From a virus, in the IMG/VR virus record IMGVR_UViG_3300017727_000224, positions 1-20,756 of that record: a stretch of DNA of 20,756 bases, one strand, 5' to 3'. The notes under the pieces were generated by a model. It was not told the origin of the DNA and ran no database searches. It saw only the letters and a program-made list of their open reading frames with translations. This document shows, piece after piece, positions 7,589 through 20,274 of this stretch. The translations under genes were made by a program, and so were the position numbers. Each line of letters starts with the position of its first letter. The first letter of the stretch is position 1.

Positions 7589-8043
7589 CATACGCATTAT
7601 CAGCTAAAAGTTTAGACAAGTTAGTAGGCGTAGACCAACGCCTGGTTGATGTAGTCTGCCGAGCTATTGAGCTTACCGACGTAGACTTTGGAGTCATCTG
7701 CGGCATGAGAACCGAAGAAGAGCAGAAGGAACTGTTCGACAAAGGCGCGTCGCAAACTATGAAGTCAAAGCATCTTGAGGGTAAAGCTGTAGATTTGCTG
7801 GCCTACGTAGGTGGCAGGCATACATGGGAACTCAACGTCTACGATGAGGTAGCTGACGCTATTAAGAAGGCGGCAAAAGAACTTGGTGTCAAGATTAGAT
7901 GGGGTGCGGCGTGGCACGTACACGACATTGCTGAGTTTGACGGGACGATGGAATGGGCCATGACAAGTTATATTGATCTAAGGAGATCAGAAGGTAAACG
8001 TCCTTTTATTGATGCTCCTCACTTTGAAATATGGGGTGACTAA
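7585..8043 (+). CDS. M15-family peptidase endolysin
   Basis: A 152-residue zinc peptidase predicted to cut peptidoglycan peptide crosslinks (D-Ala-D-Ala carboxypeptidase / L-Ala-D-Glu endopeptidase type) during lysis. The family signature is visible: GMRTEEEQKELFDKGAS (40-56), the zinc motif SKHLEGKAVDL with His63 and Asp70, the RWGAAW segment, and the final HFE with zinc-ligand His146. The length is that of a single-domain M15 enzyme without a cell-wall-binding domain. No signal peptide is seen, so it should need the holin for access to the periplasm. The ATG at 7585 overlaps the holin stop (ATGA); a longer open frame begins at 7537, but its extra 16 residues lie inside the holin gene and lack family similarity. 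Confidence 0.92.
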   Translation: MTYALSAKSLDKLVGVDQRLVDVVCRAIELTDVDFGVICGMRTEEEQKELFDKGASQTMKSKHLEGKAVDLLAYVGGRHTWELNVYDEVADAIKKAAKELGVKIRWGAAWHVHDIAEFDGTMEWAMTSYIDLRRSEGKRPFIDAPHFEIWGD

Positions 8044-8189
8044 TGTACGCAAAAACAATTCTAGGTATCAGGTCAGCGGGAAACGTCAAGAAGTCTGAGC
8101 GTCCTACTCACTATGCAAAGGGTGGTAGGAAAGGGAACATGATGTCAGAGCCATGCCCTTGTGTACTTAAAAAGAAGGGGAAGAAGTAG
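8043..8189 (+). CDS. Tiny Lys/Gly-rich basic protein
   Basis: A 48-residue protein whose ATG shares a base with the endolysin stop (taATG). It is strongly basic, with a KKSER segment, YAKGGRKGN, a CPC pair and the tail KKKGKK. No domain is recognised. The neighbouring frames are also very small basic proteins joined by one-base overlaps, so this looks like a string of coupled small genes expressed late. A DNA- or virion-associated role is plausible but inferred. Confidence 0.6.
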   Translation: MYAKTILGIRSAGNVKKSERPTHYAKGGRKGNMMSEPCPCVLKKKGKK

Positions 8190-8359
8190 TGGCCCGCAAA
8201 GCTCCCAAGAAGCCAGCGAAGAAAGACGCTTGCTACGCGAAGGTCAAGTCTCGTTACAAGGTTTGGCCAAGTGCTTATGCTTCAGGTGCTTTGGTAAAGT
8301 GCCGCAAGGTTGGTGCAAAGAACTGGGGCAACAGTAAAAAGAGTGGGAAGAAAAAGTAA
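8189..8359 (+). CDS. Small Lys/Cys-rich basic protein of the type common in marine phages
   Basis: A 56-residue protein starting at a GTG that overlaps the previous stop by one base (taGTG). The segment CYAKVKSRYKVWPSAYASG followed by ALVKCRKVGAKNWG resembles a short protein I know from marine and cyanobacterial phages, found as a stand-alone gene or at the end of structural proteins. It is flanked by Lys/Ala-rich ends (ARKAPKKPAKK and KKSGKKK). The two cysteines may be paired or bind a metal. Its role is unknown; the strong positive charge and late position suggest binding of packaged DNA or of another virion component, which is inference. Confidence 0.72.
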   Translation: MARKAPKKPAKKDACYAKVKSRYKVWPSAYASGALVKCRKVGAKNWGNSKKSGKKK

Positions 8360-8520
8360 TGGACGCTAAAACGAAGCAAGAGCTTTACAGAGAAGCGGCA
8401 AAAAGTTTTGGAAACCCTAGCGAAAGACTTAGCAACAACAGGTCTATGCACATAGCTCGTTACGTTAGTAGGTCTCCAAGTCAGAAGAGAACAACAACCC
8501 CTGTGAAAAAGAAAAATTAG
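8359..8520 (+). CDS. Small basic protein ending at an amber codon
   Basis: A 53-residue protein. The ATG overlaps the previous stop by one base (taATG). It has an N-terminal amphipathic helix (KTKQELYREAAKSF), a Ser/Arg-rich middle and a basic end (TTPVKKKN). No family is recognised. Its TAG stop at 8518-8520 is followed directly, in the same frame, by 155 further sense codons that encode a recognisable membrane protein lacking any standard start codon. This gene may therefore sometimes be read through to a 209-residue fusion, or may simply couple translation to the next gene. Confidence 0.6.
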   Translation: MDAKTKQELYREAAKSFGNPSERLSNNRSMHIARYVSRSPSQKRTTTPVKKKN

Positions 8521-8988
8521 ATTGAGGCTAATGTTATCGAACCGATCAGTACAGCTATTGCCGCTTTCGGAGCGATAAAGGCGGGCGTTGCCGCAGGCAA
8601 AGAAGTCACGTCTTTAGCAAAAGAAATAGGTACGCTTTGGGGTTCTATTGATGAGATAAACAAAGAACACAACAAGAAGAAATCCTCTGTGTTCAGGACT
8701 GTAGAAGAGGAGGCTCTGACTACGTTCATGGACAAGAAGAAAGCTCAGGACTTAGAAGACAACCTGAGACAAATAATAATATACTCTCGTGGTCCAAACG
8801 CATGGCAAGAGTTGTTGAAGTTAAGAGTGGACATTAGAAAGAAAAGGTTGCAAGAGGCAAACGAGGCAAAGAAAAGAAGAGACAACATGATAGAGGTTGT
8901 CCTTATCTCTGGGCTTTTGATCCTCGGTCTTTTCGGCCTAGCTTTTCTGGCTTACTTCTTATTAGGGTTGAAAAATGGCTTCAAATAG
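8521..8988 (+). CDS. Phage membrane-anchored coiled-coil protein with non-standard start (ATT)
   Basis: An open frame of 156 codons including stop, in the same frame as the preceding small gene. The first standard start in frame is GTG at 8686, but the upstream codons encode a coherent sequence (EANVIEPISTAIAAFGAIKAG, then KEIGTLWGSIDEINKEH) that matches my memory of phage homologues beginning MEAN-like. The ATT at 8521 therefore stands where Met is expected, directly after the TAG stop of the previous gene. The N-terminal helix is Ala/Gly-rich and mildly hydrophobic. A charged helical domain follows with EEEALTTFMDKKKAQ and YSRGPNAWQELLKLR, then a basic stretch and one strong C-terminal membrane helix (about 125-150). 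It may act in virion-membrane contact or lysis. The function is unknown. Confidence 0.72.
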   Translation: MEANVIEPISTAIAAFGAIKAGVAAGKEVTSLAKEIGTLWGSIDEINKEHNKKKSSVFRTVEEEALTTFMDKKKAQDLEDNLRQIIIYSRGPNAWQELLKLRVDIRKKRLQEANEAKKRRDNMIEVVLISGLLILGLFGLAFLAYFLLGLKNGFK

Positions 8989-9190
8989 TGACGGTTTAAG
9001 GAAGTGGTTTAGTCGCAACGGTGGCAAAGGCTGGATTGATTGCAAGACAGGTAAGGCTTGTGGTCGGCAGAAGGGTGAGAAACGCAAGGGATACCCAGCG
9101 TGTCGCCCTACTAAGGCTCAATGCAATTCATCTTCTAAGAAAAAGACAGGGCCATCTAGGATAAGCTGGAAGAAATCCACCAAGAAGTGA
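8975..9190 (+). CDS. Small Lys/Cys-rich basic protein (GW-DCKTGK-CGR type)
   Basis: A 71-residue, highly basic protein. GLRKWFSRNGGKGWIDCKTG, then KACGRQKGEKRKGYPACRPTK form a compact Cys-containing motif that I recognise from small proteins of marine phages and of some large-virus genomes, always without known function. Four cysteines (two pairs) could bind zinc or form disulfides. A long basic tail follows (KKKTGPSRISWKKSTKK). The ATG overlaps the membrane-protein gene by 14 nt, and AGGG lies about 8 nt upstream. It is the last rightward late gene, and its 3' end overlaps the 3' end of the opposing dNMP kinase gene by 35 nt. Confidence 0.78.
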   Translation: MASNSDGLRKWFSRNGGKGWIDCKTGKACGRQKGEKRKGYPACRPTKAQCNSSSKKKTGPSRISWKKSTKK

Positions 9191-9894: not shown

Positions 9895-10096
9895 TTTTGT
9901 ACTCCGCTTGCTGTATTAACTCTTTAAGTCTTAGGTTTAACTCTGCTTCCCTCTTCTTTCTATGCTCACCTTTTGGCAAGTAAAGAACATCGGACGCTTC
10001 GACGCATAACTTTTTGAACCGCTGTGTGATCCAATGGTCACTACATTTGACTATAGCAGGGGGTATTGGCCCCTGCCATCCGCTACGTTTTGGCAT
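9875..10096 (-). CDS. Small basic protein of unknown function
   Basis: A 73-residue protein starting inside the last 14 nt of the nuclease gene. The N-terminus is Pro/Gly-rich (GWQGPIPPAIVKC) and the middle reads HWITQRFKKLCVEASDVLYL, after which a charged helix (HRKKREAELNLRLKELIQQ) runs to the C-terminus. Two cysteines (18 and 31) are too far apart for a classical zinc knuckle. No family is recognised. No good ribosome-binding site is visible, so translation probably depends on the upstream gene. Confidence 0.62.
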   Translation of the reverse strand: MPKRSGWQGPIPPAIVKCSDHWITQRFKKLCVEASDVLYLPKGEHRKKREAELNLRLKELIQQAEYKNEQEGT

Positions 10097-10874
10097 GTGG
10101 TTCGTACCTTACCCAGTTCTTACACACATCTACACAACCTTTTGAACAAGTCCAATCCGCACTACTAAGAGACGACGTAGCGTTCCCACAAGTCCTCATG
10201 GTTTTCTCAGGCTCCTTGCCTTGCCAGCAAGCATCTCTCTTGAAGCAACCTCTGCATCTCCAGTCAGCCTCGTCGTGAGAAATTTTTGTGCCGTGACCAA
10301 GGATGATGTTCTCTACCTTCTGCTTCAAAGAGTTGTAGTAGAAAATCTCAAAGTCCACCCACTCGTGGTGGTAATCAGATGTGTTCTTGTTGTAGGAAAC
10401 AAGCACTGCCTTTTCTATGTTGGACAGTCCCATCATGTATTGCATCTGGGCGTAGTACATAGGGTGGCTATACTTAACACCCTTCTTAGAAAACTCTTTG
10501 AACTTGGCATCGTTCATTGATTTAATCTCAACGATAGCCATACCATCTTCGGTTTCCATGATACCGTCAGCGTTGCCCATAGCGTTGCCGTGGTAATCAG
10601 TGTACCTCCACTGCTTCCCAGTCAGGGGGTCTTTCTCCATAACATGCACACCAGCTTTTGCCATGTCGGATATAACTATGTACTCAATCCTGTGACCGTC
10701 TCTGAAAATCCTTTTCAGTTTCTGGTCAGGTGCTGTGTTAGGATAACCTCTATGGCTGTAAGAAAGCATAGCCGTACAGTCATGCCCTACAGAAGACGCG
10801 CCTATGTAGGCTCTAGGCTTCTCGTCCTCGTCCTTTGAGTAATATGTTTCGATCATCTTCGTTACGTCTATCAT
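10083..10874 (-). CDS. PD-(D/E)XK nuclease, Cas4/RecB-like, probable Fe-S cluster
   Basis: A 263-residue nuclease of the RecB/Cas4/YqaJ type, presumably a DNA exonuclease serving recombination. The catalytic core is seen in RDGHRIEY (His61), NADG (Asp103), VEIKS (Glu116, Lys118) and the following YAQMQYMM helix (Gln143, Tyr146). Cys33 near the N-terminus plus Cys207, Cys210 and Cys216 (CRGC then DAC) have the spacing of the 4Fe-4S clusters in Cas4 and AddB-type nucleases. A second Cys set (229, 243, 247, 251) at the C-terminus could form an extra zinc knuckle. The gene overlaps the methyltransferase stop as ATGA and sits among ssDNA-binding and RecA-like genes. No cas genes or repeats are nearby, so a CRISPR adaptation role is unlikely. 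Confidence 0.85.
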   Translation of the reverse strand: MIDVTKMIETYYSKDEDEKPRAYIGASSVGHDCTAMLSYSHRGYPNTAPDQKLKRIFRDGHRIEYIVISDMAKAGVHVMEKDPLTGKQWRYTDYHGNAMGNADGIMETEDGMAIVEIKSMNDAKFKEFSKKGVKYSHPMYYAQMQYMMGLSNIEKAVLVSYNKNTSDYHHEWVDFEIFYYNSLKQKVENIILGHGTKISHDEADWRCRGCFKRDACWQGKEPEKTMRTCGNATSSLSSADWTCSKGCVDVCKNWVRYEPHAKT

Positions 10875-11476
10875 GTCTTTTCCAGTACAAGAAAATAAGA
10901 GTGAAACATACGTGCGTGTTTTTGAACTCGCTTCGCTACACCTGATTGTTGGGGAACATTCATTCTGTGTTTTGCTGTGAGAATGAACATATCTTTTAAC
11001 CTAAATTTATTTTCACACCAGTTCACAACATTGATATGAGTAGAGTGCATCTTGTGATTATGTATGATGTCTTGGCACTTGAACACAAAGATACCCTTGG
11101 GTTGTAAAATCCTGTGAACTTCTGTGATTGTTTCTTTGTAGTGTTTCTCCAGTTCGTCGTACCGCCAGTAACCACCATACCTTTTGGACATTACCATGTC
11201 CCCATTTCCGCTACGTCCATTGCGGACATAGGTCAGGAAGGGTGGGTCAAACACAACTGAGGAAAGAGAACAGTCCACCAATGGCAGACTTGTACTGCAA
11301 GCTTGTATGACATCGCTTGACTGAGGGTCTATGTCGTACCTAAGAGATGGCTTAGATACGCGCTTGTAAAAGTTTCCGTTGCCGTAACTTATGTCGGCAT
11401 CAAAAGAAGACCTGTTCGTTAGCGTCAGGATGTTCTGTAAGATTTCGTTTTGGTTATCTGATACTGACTTGATCAT
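10871..11476 (-). CDS. DNA methyltransferase-like SAM enzyme
   Basis: A 201-residue class I methyltransferase-like protein. It contains LRYDIDPQ (45-52, acidic end of the SAM-binding strand), the catalytic-type motif VVFDPPF (74-80), a target-loop-like stretch, and RILQPKGIFVFKCQD followed by a conserved-looking HxH segment. The DPPF form is the DPPY-type active site of amino-methylating DNA enzymes, and phage proteins with FDxDIxYGxGNFYK near the N-terminus are known to me as predicted DNA methylases. It may protect phage DNA from host restriction. No restriction enzyme is adjacent. A stable hairpin ends nine bases before the ATG and only AGG touching the start resembles a ribosome-binding site, so initiation may be weak or regulated. 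Confidence 0.78.
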   Translation of the reverse strand: MIKSVSDNQNEILQNILTLTNRSSFDADISYGNGNFYKRVSKPSLRYDIDPQSSDVIQACSTSLPLVDCSLSSVVFDPPFLTYVRNGRSGNGDMVMSKRYGGYWRYDELEKHYKETITEVHRILQPKGIFVFKCQDIIHNHKMHSTHINVVNWCENKFRLKDMFILTAKHRMNVPQQSGVAKRVQKHARMFHSYFLVLEKT

Positions 11477-11485
11477 CCTAAAGAA

Positions 11486-11505
11486 GAGGGGGCTTTCGCC
11501 CCCTC
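11486..11505 (-). terminator. Intra-operon hairpin with GAAA tetraloop and T-rich tail (attenuator-like)
   Basis: On the minus strand a perfect 8-bp stem GAGGGGGC / GCCCCCTC encloses the stable loop GAAA and is followed by TTCTTT. This is the shape of an intrinsic terminator, lying between the ssDNA-binding protein gene and the methyltransferase gene. It could lower expression of the distal operon or stabilise the 3' end of the upstream message. Confidence 0.7.
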
Positions 11506-11517
11506 AACCCCCGCACA

Positions 11518-12030
11518 CTAAAAGGGAATGTCGTCATCGACATCATTGTTTTGAGATGGAGGCGGGCTTGATGCCGCCGCACCTAATGGGTCTTTGTGCT
11601 TTTGAATGTCAAAGGAAGGGTCAACTTTCGTAGCGGACTTATAAGACTTCACCTTCTGGTTGACCTTACCATTGTACTCATCGTCACCCACATAAATGCC
11701 GAAGACAAACCCCTTCAGTACAGACACATCGTCGTTCGGAAAAGGGTTGTCAGGGTTTGGATGACCACCATGATGGCAGAGTGTCTTCAGTTGTGAACGC
11801 CCGATCTCCTGATTTTTCGGGTGGTTCGGGTTGTACACAACAATCCAATCTGTGATCGTTCTTGTACCGTTGACCTCTCTCATCGACACAACGACTTGCT
11901 GTGTGCCGTTCTTCTTTTTCTCAGGCTTTGCGTCAGTAACCTCTACAATGTGGTTGCCCTCTGGAAGAATTATACTGCCGTTGCTAACCTCAACGTGCTG
12001 AAGATTTAGATCGTTAAAAGTGAAACTCAT
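11518..12030 (-). CDS. DUF669-like single-stranded DNA-binding protein with SSB-type tip
   Basis: A 170-residue protein resembling the DUF669 family of phage ssDNA-binding proteins. The first 115 residues are beta-rich (VEVSNGSIILPEGNHIVEV, then QQVVVSMREVNGTRTITDW), typical of an OB-like fold, followed by a flexible Pro/Ser/Gln linker (SSPPPSQNND) and an acidic C-terminus. The last six residues, DDDIPF, are identical to the tip of Escherichia coli SSB, which recruits host repair and replication enzymes. It should coat ssDNA during replication or annealing and may recruit host SSB partners. A GGGAG ribosome-binding site precedes the ATG, which overlaps the ATPase stop (ATGA). Confidence 0.87.
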   Translation of the reverse strand: MSFTFNDLNLQHVEVSNGSIILPEGNHIVEVTDAKPEKKKNGTQQVVVSMREVNGTRTITDWIVVYNPNHPKNQEIGRSQLKTLCHHGGHPNPDNPFPNDDVSVLKGFVFGIYVGDDEYNGKVNQKVKSYKSATKVDPSFDIQKHKDPLGAAASSPPPSQNNDVDDDIPF

Positions 12031-12836
12031 TGTTCGCTCCCTTGTTTAATACGTGCGTTATACTCATCGTCATCCATATCCATTTTGACAAACAAGCTGA
12101 CGATATTACCTGTCTGTTCAACTGGCTTGAGCCTTCTTCGTTCATCACGAACCTTGCCCTTCCAACCGTTATACTCTTCAGTGACTACGTATCTTATGAC
12201 CTTACCCTCTCCTGCTGAGTGAGTATCTGTAGTGTGCCTGACACCACAAAAAACATTATCAAAGATACCTGGTAACTGTTGCTGTGATTGCTTGCCAGCA
12301 ACCATAGGCCAATACTCTGTGTTACCAGCGTCGTCCTGTCCTTCCTTGGCAAGTGCCGTTACAAGAACGTGCATGTTCATATCCCTGATAGCCTTACATG
12401 CGCCTATCAAGTTCTTGGCGTGGTCAGAAAAAATCTGGAAACCGTTTACAGCTTTACCAGATTTCTTTGCGTCATCCTCTGCCACTTGGTTTGCATGCCT
12501 CATGCTCATGTCACTAAGTTCGGTCAAGCTGTCAACCCCAACCCACTTGTAACCCTTGGACTTGAAGTCGTCAGTCATCATCCACTTAAATATATCGACG
12601 AAACTATACGTATTCTTTGAAGCGTCCGAAGGTGAAGCCCAGCTAGTAAAAGGCAAATAGTCAATGCCAGCATCACGAATAGAACTCAACCCGCTTTCTC
12701 CCGAAAGGATAAACCCCTCGCCAAATTGTTTTTGGTAATGGATAAATTGGGTTGTCTTTCCCCAACCGTGATGACCGTACAGCAATGTCTTTCTGTAGCT
12801 TGTTGTGTGATCCGAAGTGTTCATTGGTTCAAACAT
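12027..12836 (-). CDS. RecA-like ATPase, Sak4-type recombinase
   Basis: A 269-residue P-loop ATPase. Walker A is GHHGWGKTT (21-29), a glycine-rich strand GEGFILSGESGLS follows, and Walker B is KWVGVDS (Asp102). A downstream sensor-like strand (MHVLVTALAKEG) and the IFDNVFCGVR segment complete a single RecA-core domain. This is the layout of Sak4-type phage proteins, which anneal or exchange strands together with an ssDNA-binding protein; such ATPases commonly neighbour DUF669 genes, as here. It likely promotes single-strand annealing recombination. The start is the ATG directly after the upstream stop, preceded by TTAGG; a second ATG four codons later (12824) is an alternative. It lacks lid or helicase domains. 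Confidence 0.88.
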   Translation of the reverse strand: MFEPMNTSDHTTSYRKTLLYGHHGWGKTTQFIHYQKQFGEGFILSGESGLSSIRDAGIDYLPFTSWASPSDASKNTYSFVDIFKWMMTDDFKSKGYKWVGVDSLTELSDMSMRHANQVAEDDAKKSGKAVNGFQIFSDHAKNLIGACKAIRDMNMHVLVTALAKEGQDDAGNTEYWPMVAGKQSQQQLPGIFDNVFCGVRHTTDTHSAGEGKVIRYVVTEEYNGWKGKVRDERRRLKPVEQTGNIVSLFVKMDMDDDEYNARIKQGSEQ

Positions 12837-13247
12837 TTAACCTAAACTCCCTGATTTAACCGAAACTTTTACTGGCCCACCCTTGCGAGTTAGTGCTGGT
12901 AAAAGTTCTTTCTGTTGCTCTTCGTCCAGCGTCTTAAACTTTTTCTTATCTATTGAATAAGTGCGACGAACAAAGTCTGGCAGGGTTGTTGATGATGTGA
13001 AAATTGTCTCAAGGATTTCCTTATCCCAAGTCCACCGTTCCTGTCGGTAAAGTGTGACCATGTAAGCACCAACCTGTTTGTTGAACTCGCCAGCATCTGC
13101 TGGAAATTCAGCTTCGATCTTCATCTTTAGATGGTCTGCTTTGCTAGACAATTTTTCGATTTGATTTACAAGCTGGCTGTACTCTTCAACCATGCCTGAT
13201 AAGCCGCCAGTTTCTGGCTGTTGCTCATAGTCTTCCCAAGTCTCCAT
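12837..13247 (-). CDS. Conserved-looking small protein, first gene of the leftward early operon
   Basis: A 136-residue protein with an acidic start (METWEDYEQQPETGG), a coiled-coil helix (MVEEYSQLVNQIEKLSSKA, then DHLKMKIEAEF), and a second half with WTWDKEILETIF, FVRRTYSIDKKKFKTL and a basic Gly/Ser end. The 'KIEAEFP...G......Y.V' pattern is seen in small phage proteins next to Sak4 and DUF669 genes, but I cannot name a function. It could be a recombination mediator or an inhibitor of a host nuclease; both are guesses. It is well started, with AAGGAG eight bases before the ATG, and stops one base before the ATPase start. Confidence 0.75.
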   Translation of the reverse strand: METWEDYEQQPETGGLSGMVEEYSQLVNQIEKLSSKADHLKMKIEAEFPADAGEFNKQVGAYMVTLYRQERWTWDKEILETIFTSSTTLPDFVRRTYSIDKKKFKTLDEEQQKELLPALTRKGGPVKVSVKSGSLG

Positions 13248-13464: not shown

Positions 13465-13686
13465 ATGTACACGTTCAATGTCAGTAGACTTGTTAAAGAC
13501 TGCGGAGGTGTTACTGAAGTCGCAAAGGCAACGGGTAAAAGTAGAACTCAACCCTACCGATGGGTAAAGACTAACAGTATAACCACCGAGATACTTGCGA
13601 AAATCGTATTCGCCAACCCCAACATAAACTTAAACTCATACTTAGAAGAGATGCGAAATGAACCAAGAAGCTCAAAAGTGGCGTGA
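13465..13686 (+). CDS. Cro/CII-like helix-turn-helix regulator
   Basis: A 73-residue DNA-binding protein. Residues 14-37 (GGVTEVAKATGKSRTQ, then PYRWVKTN) form a helix-turn-helix in which the first helix reads VTEVAKATG and the recognition helix SRTQPYRWV; the rest (TTEILAKIVFANPNINLNSYL) supports an XRE/Cro fold. Small Cro- or CII-type proteins encoded first in a rightward early operon typically bind the adjacent operators and set the lytic/lysogenic balance. It follows AAAGGA at a good distance from the ATG. The gene overlaps the primase by 29 nt, so the two are co-expressed. Which promoter it controls is inferred from position. Confidence 0.85.
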   Translation: MYTFNVSRLVKDCGGVTEVAKATGKSRTQPYRWVKTNSITTEILAKIVFANPNINLNSYLEEMRNEPRSSKVA

Positions 13687-15655
13687 GGCTTTATACCAAG
13701 CGTCCGTCGAGGCAGTAGAAAGGGGGTGGTGTATCATCCCCTTATCTCTGCAAAGCAAGAAGCCGCTAGTTAGCTGGAAGAAGTACCAGACAGAGCCTAC
13801 CACGTTAGAGGAAGTGGAAGACTGGTTTGAGAATGGTGTAAAAACTTCCAGTGGAAATGTAGTTGGTACGTTTAACATTGCTGTCCTTACTGGTTCTATC
13901 AGTGGGATAATTGTCTTGGACTGTGACAACGAGAAGTCAGTTGAGTACGCAGTCAAGAACGATTTGACCTCACCGTTTGTAGTGCATACAGCAAGAGGTA
14001 AGCACTTCTACTTTGCTCACCCACTTCATGGACAAAGATTTGCCAACAACGTGGGGGGTGTAACAAGGAACTGGCCTGACATAGAAGGGCTAGACCTACG
14101 TGGTGACGGCGGGTACGTAGTGATGCCGCCGTCCATGAAGATGCGAGACAACAAGGTAGAACACATATACCACATGGAAGTTGGGTATGGCCTTGGCCTT
14201 GACGACATGGAAGACTTTGTTTGGAAAGGTGCGCCAGATAGCGTAGCCCAACCGCAAGTAGGAGAGTTTGCTTTCGGAAACTTAAATCTTTCTGGTGTAA
14301 AAGTTGGCCAGATAGAAGAGTCTCTGCCAGTTTATGATCAGGTCAAGAGGCGTGTAGCACACTTAGGTCACAAGCTACGCGAAGGGGATGGAACCGATGT
14401 TTGGATGCTCAGATATATTGGTCAGCAAGTCCGTCAAGGAGTTGTCGAAGAGTCATTGCTTCTTAAAGTAACTAAGTTCCACGACGATTTCTTCGACGAC
14501 ACGGGCTTCACTCCTGATGATACACAAAATTGGATTGCTACCAAGATACGTAGTGTTGTCGATATGGATAGAAGATCATACCCAGAAGAGTATGACAACG
14601 AAGGAAGGCGAATACTAAAAGCTAAAGAACCACCCAGACTTGGCAGACTTGTCCCAATCCGTGGCTCTGATGTCGATAGACTTATCGACACACTGGGAGA
14701 AACCAGCTACTGGTCAGACCCAGTGATACCGTCTGAAACAATCACACAAGTTGTTGGCTACAATGGTCACGGCAAGTCCTTTTTCTTACAAGGCATGTTA
14801 GTAAGTATGGCATCAGGCAATGAGAGTTTTGGTCCGTTTGCTCAGAAGCCAGCGAAGGTTCTCTACTTAGACTACGACAACCCAAGCCGTACTGTTCTGT
14901 ACAGATTTCGTAACTTCATAAACATGTTCGGTGACAGCGGTGAGAATTTCAACATGTGGTCGCCTTCACTAATCTCTGCCGACGATGGTGGAGAGATGAA
15001 CTTAGGTACGGAGCAGGGGTTCAAGTTGCTCGGAGACTGGTTGGAAGTAATCAAGCCTGATATCGTGGTGATTGATACGGTTCGTAATGCGTTCGGCGGG
15101 TTGGAGGAAGCTAACGCCGCTGAATGGTTCAAGGTCAACCACGTAGCCAAGTCGATACGTACTAAGTTCAAGGCAAGCGTAGTGCTTGTACACCACCGCA
15201 ACAAACCAGGCGAGGGTGGATTAGGTAGAGAGGCTGGGTCAACAGCACAGCTTACCGACATTGATACACAGGTTATGGTGACTCAAGTATATCGGGACAA
15301 GAACGTAGCGAAGACGAAGGCGGCAATTCACGATGCTGATGTATCGGTTACTGCGTTCAGTGGTGCAGAGTACACTGCCACTACTTTCTTAGAGAACCAG
15401 TTGGAGCCAGACAGCAGACTCAAGATGGTTCAACAAATTTCCTTTGGGAAAGTTCGTACTCAGACAGAGTTGCACCGCACATACTACATTGGCTGGGCTG
15501 AACGGCTGGTGGACGGAAGCGAATACCTTGTGCATACCCCATCACCGAGGCAACAGGCAGTGTGGTTACACATTCACAAGTCGATGGGGGTTGAGGAAGT
15601 GAGTCGTTCACTGAGCATACCTAGATACGAAGTTGAAAGGTGGTTGCAACAATGA
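13658..15655 (+). CDS. Primase-polymerase / RecA-like replicative helicase fusion
   Basis: A 665-residue replication protein. The N-terminal prim-pol domain (about 1-165) shows the catalytic DxD in IIVLDCDNEKS (Asp88, Asp90), TARGKHFYF (111-119, motif with His116) and LDLRGDGGYVVMPPS (145-159). The middle is helical with DGTDVWMLRYIGQQVRQG. A RepA/AAA_25-like ATPase follows: Walker A GYNGHGKS (367-374), Walker B IVVIDTV (Asp473), and a VVLVHHRNKPGEGG sensor loop. The last 30 residues look like a helix-turn-helix (GVEEVSRSLSIPRYEVERWL). It should unwind the origin and make primers. Repeats resembling iterons begin seven bases after its stop. No DNA polymerase is present in the window, so another part of the genome or the host must supply it. 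Confidence 0.9.
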   Translation: MNQEAQKWREALYQASVEAVERGWCIIPLSLQSKKPLVSWKKYQTEPTTLEEVEDWFENGVKTSSGNVVGTFNIAVLTGSISGIIVLDCDNEKSVEYAVKNDLTSPFVVHTARGKHFYFAHPLHGQRFANNVGGVTRNWPDIEGLDLRGDGGYVVMPPSMKMRDNKVEHIYHMEVGYGLGLDDMEDFVWKGAPDSVAQPQVGEFAFGNLNLSGVKVGQIEESLPVYDQVKRRVAHLGHKLREGDGTDVWMLRYIGQQVRQGVVEESLLLKVTKFHDDFFDDTGFTPDDTQNWIATKIRSVVDMDRRSYPEEYDNEGRRILKAKEPPRLGRLVPIRGSDVDRLIDTLGETSYWSDPVIPSETITQVVGYNGHGKSFFLQGMLVSMASGNESFGPFAQKPAKVLYLDYDNPSRTVLYRFRNFINMFGDSGENFNMWSPSLISADDGGEMNLGTEQGFKLLGDWLEVIKPDIVVIDTVRNAFGGLEEANAAEWFKVNHVAKSIRTKFKASVVLVHHRNKPGEGGLGREAGSTAQLTDIDTQVMVTQVYRDKNVAKTKAAIHDADVSVTAFSGAEYTATTFLENQLEPDSRLKMVQQISFGKVRTQTELHRTYYIGWAERLVDGSEYLVHTPSPRQQAVWLHIHKSMGVEEVSRSLSIPRYEVERWLQQ

Positions 15656-16245: not shown

Positions 16246-16763
16246 GTAAGCAAAAGCGCAAAGGTGACGGGTACGAACGAGAGTTAGCTAAGTGGTTGGA
16301 CTACTGGCTGTTCGGTAGCAGTGGGCATGTACAACGTGCGCCTCTGTCTGGTGGTGGGAGCAACGCTTTTGGTGGGGGATTACCTGACTTAAACGGCACA
16401 CCGTTTATGTGGGTGGAGGCCAAGCGGACGGAAAAGTTCAGCCCCTATGCCGCTATGGAGCAAGCCGAAAAAGGTATTGAGAAATCCAGAAGCAGGGATA
16501 TACCAGTAGTTCTAACAAGACGGAACAGGATGGACACGTCGGAGAGCTTAGTAGTTATGCGGCTAGGTGACTGGCTACCCCTGTATAAATCCTTTCTTTG
16601 GGAGATGGGTGTCGAAACAGAAGAGCCAGAAGAGGAGGGAGTGTCCATTACTTTTGATCCAGAGTTTGACTTCGGGGACGACGAAGCGTCTAACGTCGTG
16701 CCACTATCTGAATATAGGAGTCACTTAAAGCTGGTGAAAGACGATGGCGAAGAAGAGGTGTAG
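16242..16763 (+). CDS. Hjc-like Holliday junction resolvase (PD-(D/E)XK nuclease)
   Basis: A 173-residue nuclease with the layout of archaeal Hjc-type and phage resolvases: GDGYERELAKWL (Glu12), HVQRAPLSGGG with the basic/Ser-Gly loop, GGLPDL (Asp49), WVEAKR (Glu59, Lys61), a helix with EQAEKG, and a strand PVVLTRRNR. The core ends near residue 115, and an acidic, linker-like tail of about 55 residues follows (EEPEEEG...), longer than in minimal enzymes. It presumably trims branched DNA made by replication and recombination before packaging. The ATG overlaps the preceding stop as ATGA, and its 3' end overlaps the next gene by 20 nt. Confidence 0.85.
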   Translation: MSKQKRKGDGYERELAKWLDYWLFGSSGHVQRAPLSGGGSNAFGGGLPDLNGTPFMWVEAKRTEKFSPYAAMEQAEKGIEKSRSRDIPVVLTRRNRMDTSESLVVMRLGDWLPLYKSFLWEMGVETEEPEEEGVSITFDPEFDFGDDEASNVVPLSEYRSHLKLVKDDGEEEV

Positions 16764-17010
16764 CGTAAAACTTTCTGTTGGTCGTGGTGAGAAGAAGCCC
16801 GCCTCCAAAGGTGCTGGCCTGACCGCGAAGGGAAGGGCTAAACATAACAGGGCGTGTGGTTCTAAGTTAAAAGCACCACAACCAGGTGGTGGGAAGCGCA
16901 AAGATTCCTACTGTAAACGCTCTGCTGGTCAAATGAAGATGCACAACATCAGTTGTAAGAAGACACCAAAGAAACGTATCTGCGCGGCTCGTCGCCGTTG
17001 GGGATGTTAG
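16744..17010 (+). CDS. Small basic Cys-rich phage protein (GL-AKGR---LKAPQPGGG-RK family)
   Basis: An 88-residue, strongly basic protein. GLTAKGRAKHNRACGSKLKA followed by PQPGGGKRKDSYCKRSAGQMK matches a short conserved segment I know from many cyanophage and marine-phage proteins, where members may be stand-alone or fused to structural proteins; no function has been established to my knowledge. Cysteines at 6, 38, 57, 70, 79 and 88 are numerous for its size. The end is Arg-rich (RICAARRRWGC). It could bind DNA or RNA. It overlaps the resolvase gene by 20 nt and is followed by a 69-nt spacer with a small hairpin. Confidence 0.78.
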   Translation: MAKKRCSVKLSVGRGEKKPASKGAGLTAKGRAKHNRACGSKLKAPQPGGGKRKDSYCKRSAGQMKMHNISCKKTPKKRICAARRRWGC

Positions 17011-17044
17011 GGACGACTTGCTACTAGCATTTGTCCACACTCTA

Positions 17045-17060
17045 GGCTACTTCAGTAGCC
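17045..17060 (+). other. Short hairpin between two small basic-protein genes
   Basis: GGCTAC / GTAGCC pair perfectly around a TTCA loop within the 69-nt spacer 17011-17079. No T-tract follows, so it is not a good terminator. It lies eight bases before the TAGGAG of the next gene and may be an RNA processing or stability element. Confidence 0.45.
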
Positions 17061-17079
17061 CAATCTTAGGAGATAACTA

Positions 17080-17247
17080 ATGGCTTATGATCGACGCACA
17101 ACTGCCGCAAAGAAAAAGACTGCGGATAAAAAGAACAAGGTGTCCAAGCGTACTGGACTTGTGACCAAAGCATCTGCTGGTAAAGCATCAGGTATCCGCA
17201 ACATGGCAAACAAAACTGCTCGTGGTCGTGGCATCCGACGCGGATAA
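17080..17247 (+). CDS. Tiny Lys/Arg/Ala-rich basic protein
   Basis: A 55-residue protein with an ATG ten bases after a clear TAGGAG. The composition is histone-like: MAYDRRTTAAKKKTADKKNK at the start, then SKRTGLVTKASAGKASG and a GRGIRRG end. There are almost no acidic or aromatic residues and no cysteine. No family is recognised. Such a peptide could condense DNA or coat RNA. Its last 26 nt overlap the HNH endonuclease gene in another frame. Confidence 0.7.
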   Translation: MAYDRRTTAAKKKTADKKNKVSKRTGLVTKASAGKASGIRNMANKTARGRGIRRG

Positions 17248-19263: not shown

Positions 19264-20274
19264 TCAGATATCACCCAATTGTTTGCGAGATGACATGACA
19301 AAATCCTTTGCCCTGCTTTGTATATACCCACGATAACGCATTGTCATTGATACGTCGGCATGACCCAGCAAATATTGCAGATCGCCCAAGTCCGCACCAG
19401 CCTTGGCTGTTAGGTATGCGAACGTATGTCGTGCATCATGCACTCTGATGGGTGGTATTGTGCAATATGCACACGCTCTCTTCAGTGCTTTGTTAAGTGT
19501 GGCTGATGCAGAACGATTGTCGTTCCAGATGTCCAGCCCCCTAGTCGGAAAGCTTCTGACCATATCTGTTACGTCGTCAGACATCGGAACATCACGGGTC
19601 AAAGTCTTTTGTTTCATCTTGCTAACACGACGTATCTTCACAACGCCACCACGAAAGCAAGACTCATCAAGCCTCAGCATCTCACCAAGCCTTGCACCAG
19701 TATCAAACAGTAGAAGAAAGTGAGGATAGTATTTGGGTTCGTTAGTCTTGAAGAAGCGCAACACATCTAACACTTGCTCCTCATCCAGATGGACATCTCT
19801 AGCGTCATCCACTTGGGGGATAGGTATCTTTGGGCATCGCCATCCGTATGTCTCCTCGGCATACTTGAGTATCGCTCGTAGTTGGTTGAGATAACGCTTG
19901 ATACTGTTGGCCTGTAGACCCTGCATAGCCTCGAACACGAACGCCTGTATGCGTTGGGTGGTTACGTCGTTCAAGGATACCTTGCTCCAATAACTAGACA
20001 GCTTGTCTATCTTGCTGTCCATGTCACGAGACATCCTGCCTTCCAACTGTTTCCAACGTCGGTAGTCTTTGATTGCCTCACCGACAGTCTTGTTGGTGCT
20101 GTTGTACAGAGTGTTGGTTAGTATCTTGCTCTCCATATCAACCCGCATTTGTTCAGCGATCTGCTTACCATTCGGATGGTTAGTAGGAACGCGGGTGCTT
20201 TTACGCACCCTGTTCCCTGACAAAGACCCGACGATATGCCACACGCCACCATTCTTTTCTATCTTCAGCATCAT
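19264..20274 (-). CDS. int: Tyrosine recombinase integrase
   Basis: A 336-residue phage integrase that would recombine attP with a host attB site. The N-terminal 55 residues are beta-rich and basic (arm-binding type), residues 62-145 form the SAM-like core-binding helices (KTVGEAIKDYRRWKQLEG onward), and the catalytic domain holds TGARLGEML (Arg195), the KMKQK strand (Lys222/224), RVHDARHTFA (His279, Arg282), LLGHADVSMTMRY (His305) and the nucleophile Tyr314. All catalytic residues are present, so it appears intact. Two ATGs compete: 20274, and 20271 with better spacing to AGGGAG. The gene starts seven bases after the upstream small gene's stop, and its 3' end abuts an A/T-tract region that may be attP. 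Confidence 0.93.
   Translation of the reverse strand: MMLKIEKNGGVWHIVGSLSGNRVRKSTRVPTNHPNGKQIAEQMRVDMESKILTNTLYNSTNKTVGEAIKDYRRWKQLEGRMSRDMDSKIDKLSSYWSKVSLNDVTTQRIQAFVFEAMQGLQANSIKRYLNQLRAILKYAEETYGWRCPKIPIPQVDDARDVHLDEEQVLDVLRFFKTNEPKYYPHFLLLFDTGARLGEMLRLDESCFRGGVVKIRRVSKMKQKTLTRDVPMSDDVTDMVRSFPTRGLDIWNDNRSASATLNKALKRACAYCTIPPIRVHDARHTFAYLTAKAGADLGDLQYLLGHADVSMTMRYRGYIQSRAKDFVMSSRKQLGDI

Follow-up and report, generated by a model that had tools for sequence, protein, structure and literature searches.

A putative phage single-stranded DNA-binding protein encoded next to sak4 ends in a conserved bacterial SSB-type tip

The phage gene located at 11518-12030 (minus strand) of the 20.8-kb window (the whole stretch of 20,756 nucleotides that was analysed) probably encodes the phage's own Sak4-partner single-stranded DNA-binding protein (SSB), in which the C-terminal hexapeptide DDDIPF would serve as docking peptide and Sak4 would be the most likely first partner. 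This reading is based on the sequence, a structure model and the analogy to a characterised phage system. The DUF669-like product is 170 amino acids long, and its C-terminus reads SSPPPSQNNDVDDDIPF, directly followed by TAG (ORF 12030 to 11518, minus strand). The six codons of the tip are located at 11521-11538 and the stop codon at 11518-11520 stands straight after the Phe codon, leaving a free C-terminal carboxylate. The tip is preceded by a weakly conserved, disordered linker, DIQKHKDPLGAAASSPPPSQNNDV (approximately residues 141-164; 11539-11610, minus strand). That a phage protein here ends in DDDIPF had been proposed in the original prediction, and both the ORF reading and the conservation of the tip confirm it.

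The profile phrog_378 ("single strand DNA binding protein") matches the window protein with an E value of 1e-7, and the alignment covers profile positions 6 to 163, where the profile ends. A Pfam search with the window protein gave no match, including none to DUF669 (PF05037). Eight of the 25 aligned relatives match PF05037 weakly (best E 0.0019), and the protein of the Roseobacter phage CRP-810 scores above the DUF669 cut-off. The OB domain of the canonical bacterial SSB (PF00436) has no sequence match in the window protein, and a PF00436 SSB was found neither in the window nor in 12 related viral records, which rules out a canonical SSB identity on sequence. The AlphaFold2 model, calculated from an alignment of the 25 relatives, predicts an OB topology (b1-b2-b3-alpha-b4-b5) followed by a disordered tail; the mean pLDDT of 72 is moderate, and values drop below 50 at residues 150-165. 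With Foldseek, the best PDB match of the predicted core is PrgE (8s4s, E 8e-8, TM 0.58/0.73), the ssDNA-binding protein of plasmid pCF10, which differs from the window SSB in being a plasmid protein with 17-18% identity; the best viral matches are DUF669 proteins. The core is thus probably related to SSB in fold and not in sequence. The earlier statement that it is unrelated to SSB holds for the sequence but not for the modelled fold, and the designation as DUF669-like, which the Pfam search of the window protein does not yield, is reached via the relatives and the structure.

Conservation of the tip was analysed in two collections. The first comprises the gene after each sak4 homologue in viral contigs plus that of CRP-810 (40 complete, 26 distinct proteins); all 26 distinct proteins have PF at the C-terminus, and outside the closest relatives their linkers are only 3-48% identical to that of the window protein. 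The second, partly independent of the first, contains relatives picked solely for their core motifs; an [IV]PF end is shared by 53 of its 54 distinct tails, and 79 of the 80 complete loci have sak4 adjoining ssb. When both were merged, 58 of 59 distinct tails ended in [I/V/L/M]-P-F, almost always with acidic residues before it, so that the tip is kept among relatives as the original prediction would have it. The sole exception, on contig L143, carries DDDDIPF followed by 12 more residues. Among the 58 tails, positions -1 and -2 (PF) are invariant, Ile occupies position -3 in 52, and an acidic residue is present at positions -4 to -6 in 79-93%. Column entropy in the merged set is 2.8-3.7 bits in the linker versus 0-1.95 bits in the tip. 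After thinning to 60% identity, which was applied to PF-ending tails only, 20 of 20 representatives end in PF. The tip codons vary silently among the relatives: each of the four Pro codons occurs, and so does each of the two Phe codons. Because PF is kept in nearly all distinct relatives while the linker drifts and the codons change silently, the tip peptide is evidently under strong purifying selection. The linker had been described as flexible, and the disorder in the model and the sequence drift agree with this. An acidic-[ILVM]PF end is found in 25 of 519 distinct ORFs of at least 80 amino acids from the collected loci; the tails listed for this screen belong to sak4-adjacent SSB genes, plus the related DDEPPF of Streptomyces phage Yara, encoded by the gene after sak4. 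Altogether, the sequences and the predicted structure give good support for a phage ssDNA-binding protein whose flexible linker carries a functional docking tip of the SSB type.

The gene overlapping ssb encodes a Sak4-like ssDNA annealase, a RecA-like AAA_24 ATPase (12027-12836, minus strand; phrog_124, E 2.4e-27; PF13479, E 9e-19), and the 3′ end of sak4 and the start of ssb share 4 bp (ATGA). Before sak4, the same operon contains a gene for a small conserved protein, phrog_2480 (12837-13247, minus strand). Genes of this family repeatedly adjoin sak4 or ssb, as in CRP-810 (gp25), CGphi29 and PB15; CRP-810 gp25 additionally resembles, weakly, a RecE-like exonuclease profile. After ssb a terminator-like hairpin is found, GAGGGGGC GAAA GCCCCCTC TTCTTT (11486-11505, minus strand). 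It is followed by a DNA methyltransferase-like gene (10871-11476, minus strand; phrog_24333, E 2e-78) and a gene for a Cas4-domain/RecE-like exonuclease (10083-10874, minus strand; phrog_1990, E 1e-51), which probably belongs to the recombination module as its third gene. A fusion of Prim-Pol and AAA_25 helicase (13658-15655, plus strand) lies divergent to the operon of sak4 and ssb, so the phage probably supplies its own primase-helicase, and a tyrosine integrase gene (19264-20274, minus strand) suggests that it is temperate. Several small ORFs very rich in Lys and Arg, some with repeated Cys, are located at 8043-8520, 8975-9190 and 16744-17247. tRNA genes were not found in the window, and among phage records there was no near match to it.

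Such a pair of Sak4 and a tip-bearing SSB is an already known arrangement, of which the window is a further example. In HK620, ssb encodes a bona fide SSB that is the partner of Sak4; its last six residues, NDYPPF, are required for binding of Sak4 to SSB-coated ssDNA as well as for annealing and most of the recombineering stimulation (PMC5928155). In Staphylococcus aureus phages, Sak or Sak4 and the cognate Ssb are both required for replication and concatemers, and host Ssb proteins failed to take the place of the phage Ssb (PMC5499656). When the tip was first noted, both the HK620 precedent and the sak4 gene that overlaps upstream had been missed. Like the window SSB, the HK620 SSB (HkaK/Abc1, DUF669) has a 4-bp overlap with the 3′ end of sak4 and an acidic-aromatic C-terminal tip on a flexible tail, and the two show remote profile similarity. 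They differ in tip (NDYPPF versus DDDIPF) and length (195 versus 170 amino acids), and biochemistry is available for the HK620 SSB, whereas the window SSB is known from its sequence. With sak4 adjacency, a predicted OB core and an acidic tip ending in an aromatic residue, the window protein has three features of a Sak4-partner SSB. Direct similarity to the HK620 SSB is remote (hhalign probability 67%, E 5e-5, 74 columns), and because of this the case for a like function is stronger than that for close kinship.

Related arrangements were found in other phages. Roseobacter phage CRP-810 (gp25-gp27) has the same order of phrog_2480, sak4, ssb and a PD-(D/E)XK nuclease gene, divergent from a primase/polymerase gene; its Sak4 is 46% identical to that of the window, and its SSB, annotated as hypothetical protein, ends in NDDIPF and shows 36% identity to the window SSB over half its length. 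ORF29 of Lactobacillus phage phiAT3, located directly after sak4, is a Pfam DUF669 SSB ending in DDDLPF; it differs from the window SSB by its Firmicutes-type tip, a much diverged core and a tail homologous to that of a canonical phage SSB. E. coli SSB and other bacterial SSBs (PF00436) share with the window SSB the hexapeptide tip, the flexible linker and an OB-fold core, but that core belongs to a different OB subfamily and has no PF00436 counterpart in the window protein's sequence.

What is directly established for the window SSB is its sequence, conservation, gene pairing and predicted fold; ssDNA binding, contact with and loading of Sak4, annealing and a role in replication we infer by analogy. 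As in HK620, the OB-fold core would coat single-stranded phage DNA, and the flexible tail would display DDDIPF-COOH as docking peptide. On the coated DNA the tip would recruit Sak4, the product of the overlapping gene, which would then anneal complementary strands, leading to recombination-dependent replication and concatemer formation. Since the bacterial consensus is retained in the tip, host readers of SSB tips may dock as well. Against Sak4 docking as the explanation of the tip stand Sak4-partner SSBs that lack an SSB tip: those of Seurat, CGphi29, PB15, Siara and Mcat18 have PPW tails, and that of a Hafnia phage ends in ENFF. DDDIPF is therefore not needed for Sak4 pairing, and another force may preserve it. 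The role of the tip and Sak4 pairing are inseparable in this clade, where sak4 adjoins ssb in practically all relatives.

One such force, compatible with Sak4 docking, would be the host: the tip may copy the host SSB tip and recruit PriA, RecO, RecQ/RecJ, DnaG, the clamp-loader chi and others. Judged from the sequences, host recruitment by the tip is plausible, and we regard it as a serious possibility that falls somewhat short of being probable. Three Rhodobacterales have SSB genes on large plasmids, and the products end in DDEIPF, DDEIPF and DDDIPF. No other tips are as frequent in the phage clade as these two (17 and 12 of 54), and a Roseobacter is the host of the closest isolate that has a related sak4-ssb pair. 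Seven DUF669 SSBs from Firmicutes, including that of phiAT3, have LPF or VPF as their end, mostly LPF, and resemble the SsbA proteins of Firmicutes, which end in LPF (DDDLPF in S. mutans, PMC5143411). The tip of Streptomyces phage Yara, DDEPPF, is also the end of the SSB of M. smegmatis, an actinobacterium related to Streptomyces (PMC7847540). In addition, the phiAT3 DUF669 SSB and the canonical SSB of phage J-1 have a common tail on differing cores. The match between phage and host tips in these few lineages is suggestive. However, it covers only about three clades, is confounded by phylogeny and could reflect a generic docking consensus common to phage and host tips. Gammaproteobacterial HK620-type SSBs end in NDYPPF, SDLPF, DDAPF, ENFF or GDDWE whereas their hosts have DDDIPF-type tips, and further gammaproteobacterial DUF669 SSBs adjoining sak4 have PPW-variant ends. 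Because of these exceptions, strict identity of phage and host tips was rejected as a rule; the proposed comparison with host-type SSB C-termini yields identical tips for the Rhodobacterales and deviating ones for the gammaproteobacterial phages. A more tentative extension is that OB-fold SSBs from several phage lineages, unrelated or only remotely related to one another, carry tips tuned to the host dialect (IPF, LPF, PPF). Convergence or an exchange of tails would have brought this about, and a single peptide would serve both the phage annealase and host SSB-interacting proteins. A sequence scan of genome contigs matched the window phage to a single contig, from a Marinimicrobiota MAG. This contig was left out of the host assignment: the one SSB found in the MAG, read from its start codon, lacks a tip, and the contig itself could be a virus that was binned with the genome.

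The acidic tails of T7 gp2.5 and T4 gp32 have been proposed to compete with ssDNA for the OB cleft. A tail acting within the protein in this way, thereby tuning affinity and cooperativity, would be compatible with docking and fits a tail that is acidic and flexibly linked; in the HK620 study, binding of ssDNA is suggested to free the tail (PMC5928155). Charge alone would not require the invariant C-terminal Pro-Phe, which is conserved more strongly than the rest of the tail, and we consider this explanation rather unlikely. Very improbable is a decoy that titrates host SSB-interacting proteins off host DNA. The identity of the tip to the bacterial consensus would suit a decoy, but the gene sits in a recombination operon with sak4 and the exonuclease, and a decoy would need neither a DNA-binding core nor the pairing with sak4; the titration of the host replication and repair set put forward in the original prediction found no specific support. 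A chance likeness to the SSB tip is rejected by the conservation of the PF end in 58 of 59 distinct relatives and by shuffling, since GAYGAYGAYATHCCNTTYTRR, the degenerate DNA for DDDIPF-stop, is present a single time in the window and was absent from all 100 dinucleotide shuffles.

Several tail variants were observed elsewhere. The phiAT3 DUF669 SSB (L066:11106-11663) and the J-1 canonical SSB (L096:508-993) have about 30 C-terminal residues in common, ..FAN[SN]GQP[IL]D[VI]SDDDLPF, on cores of different families, which suggests tail exchange. A non-terminal DDDIPF with a conserved extension of approximately 10-16 residues, for example MDFDDDIPFAPIGLPYPRHAIYVI, is present in the viral contigs L182-L261 (105 stretches), at L101:889-1620 and at approximately 3449-3504 of L143. 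It is carried by unlike cores: canonical SSB, DUF669/phrog_743 SSB and at least three others (L230, L244, L256). The string IPFAPIG was not found in the literature searched. SSB partners are thought to need the Phe carboxylate of the tip, and judging from the sequence such an extension would cap it. Gammaproteobacterial Sak4-associated DUF669-type SSBs (L057, L058, L059, L060, L061 and L062) mostly have a Pro-rich tail with a PPW/PW-type end (PPWAQ, PPWQK, KPWVRG, PPWQQ, APWA) and no SSB tip; this end is possibly an alternative docking peptide.

Read as a Sak4-partner SSB, the window protein would mean that SSB and Sak4 cooperate as in HK620 also in a clade of uncultured marine phages, one that carries the bacterial consensus hexapeptide. 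Genes annotated as hypothetical, such as CRP-810 gp27, would thereby gain a functional reading, and it becomes a testable question whether the six-residue tip serves the phage annealase, host repair proteins or both.
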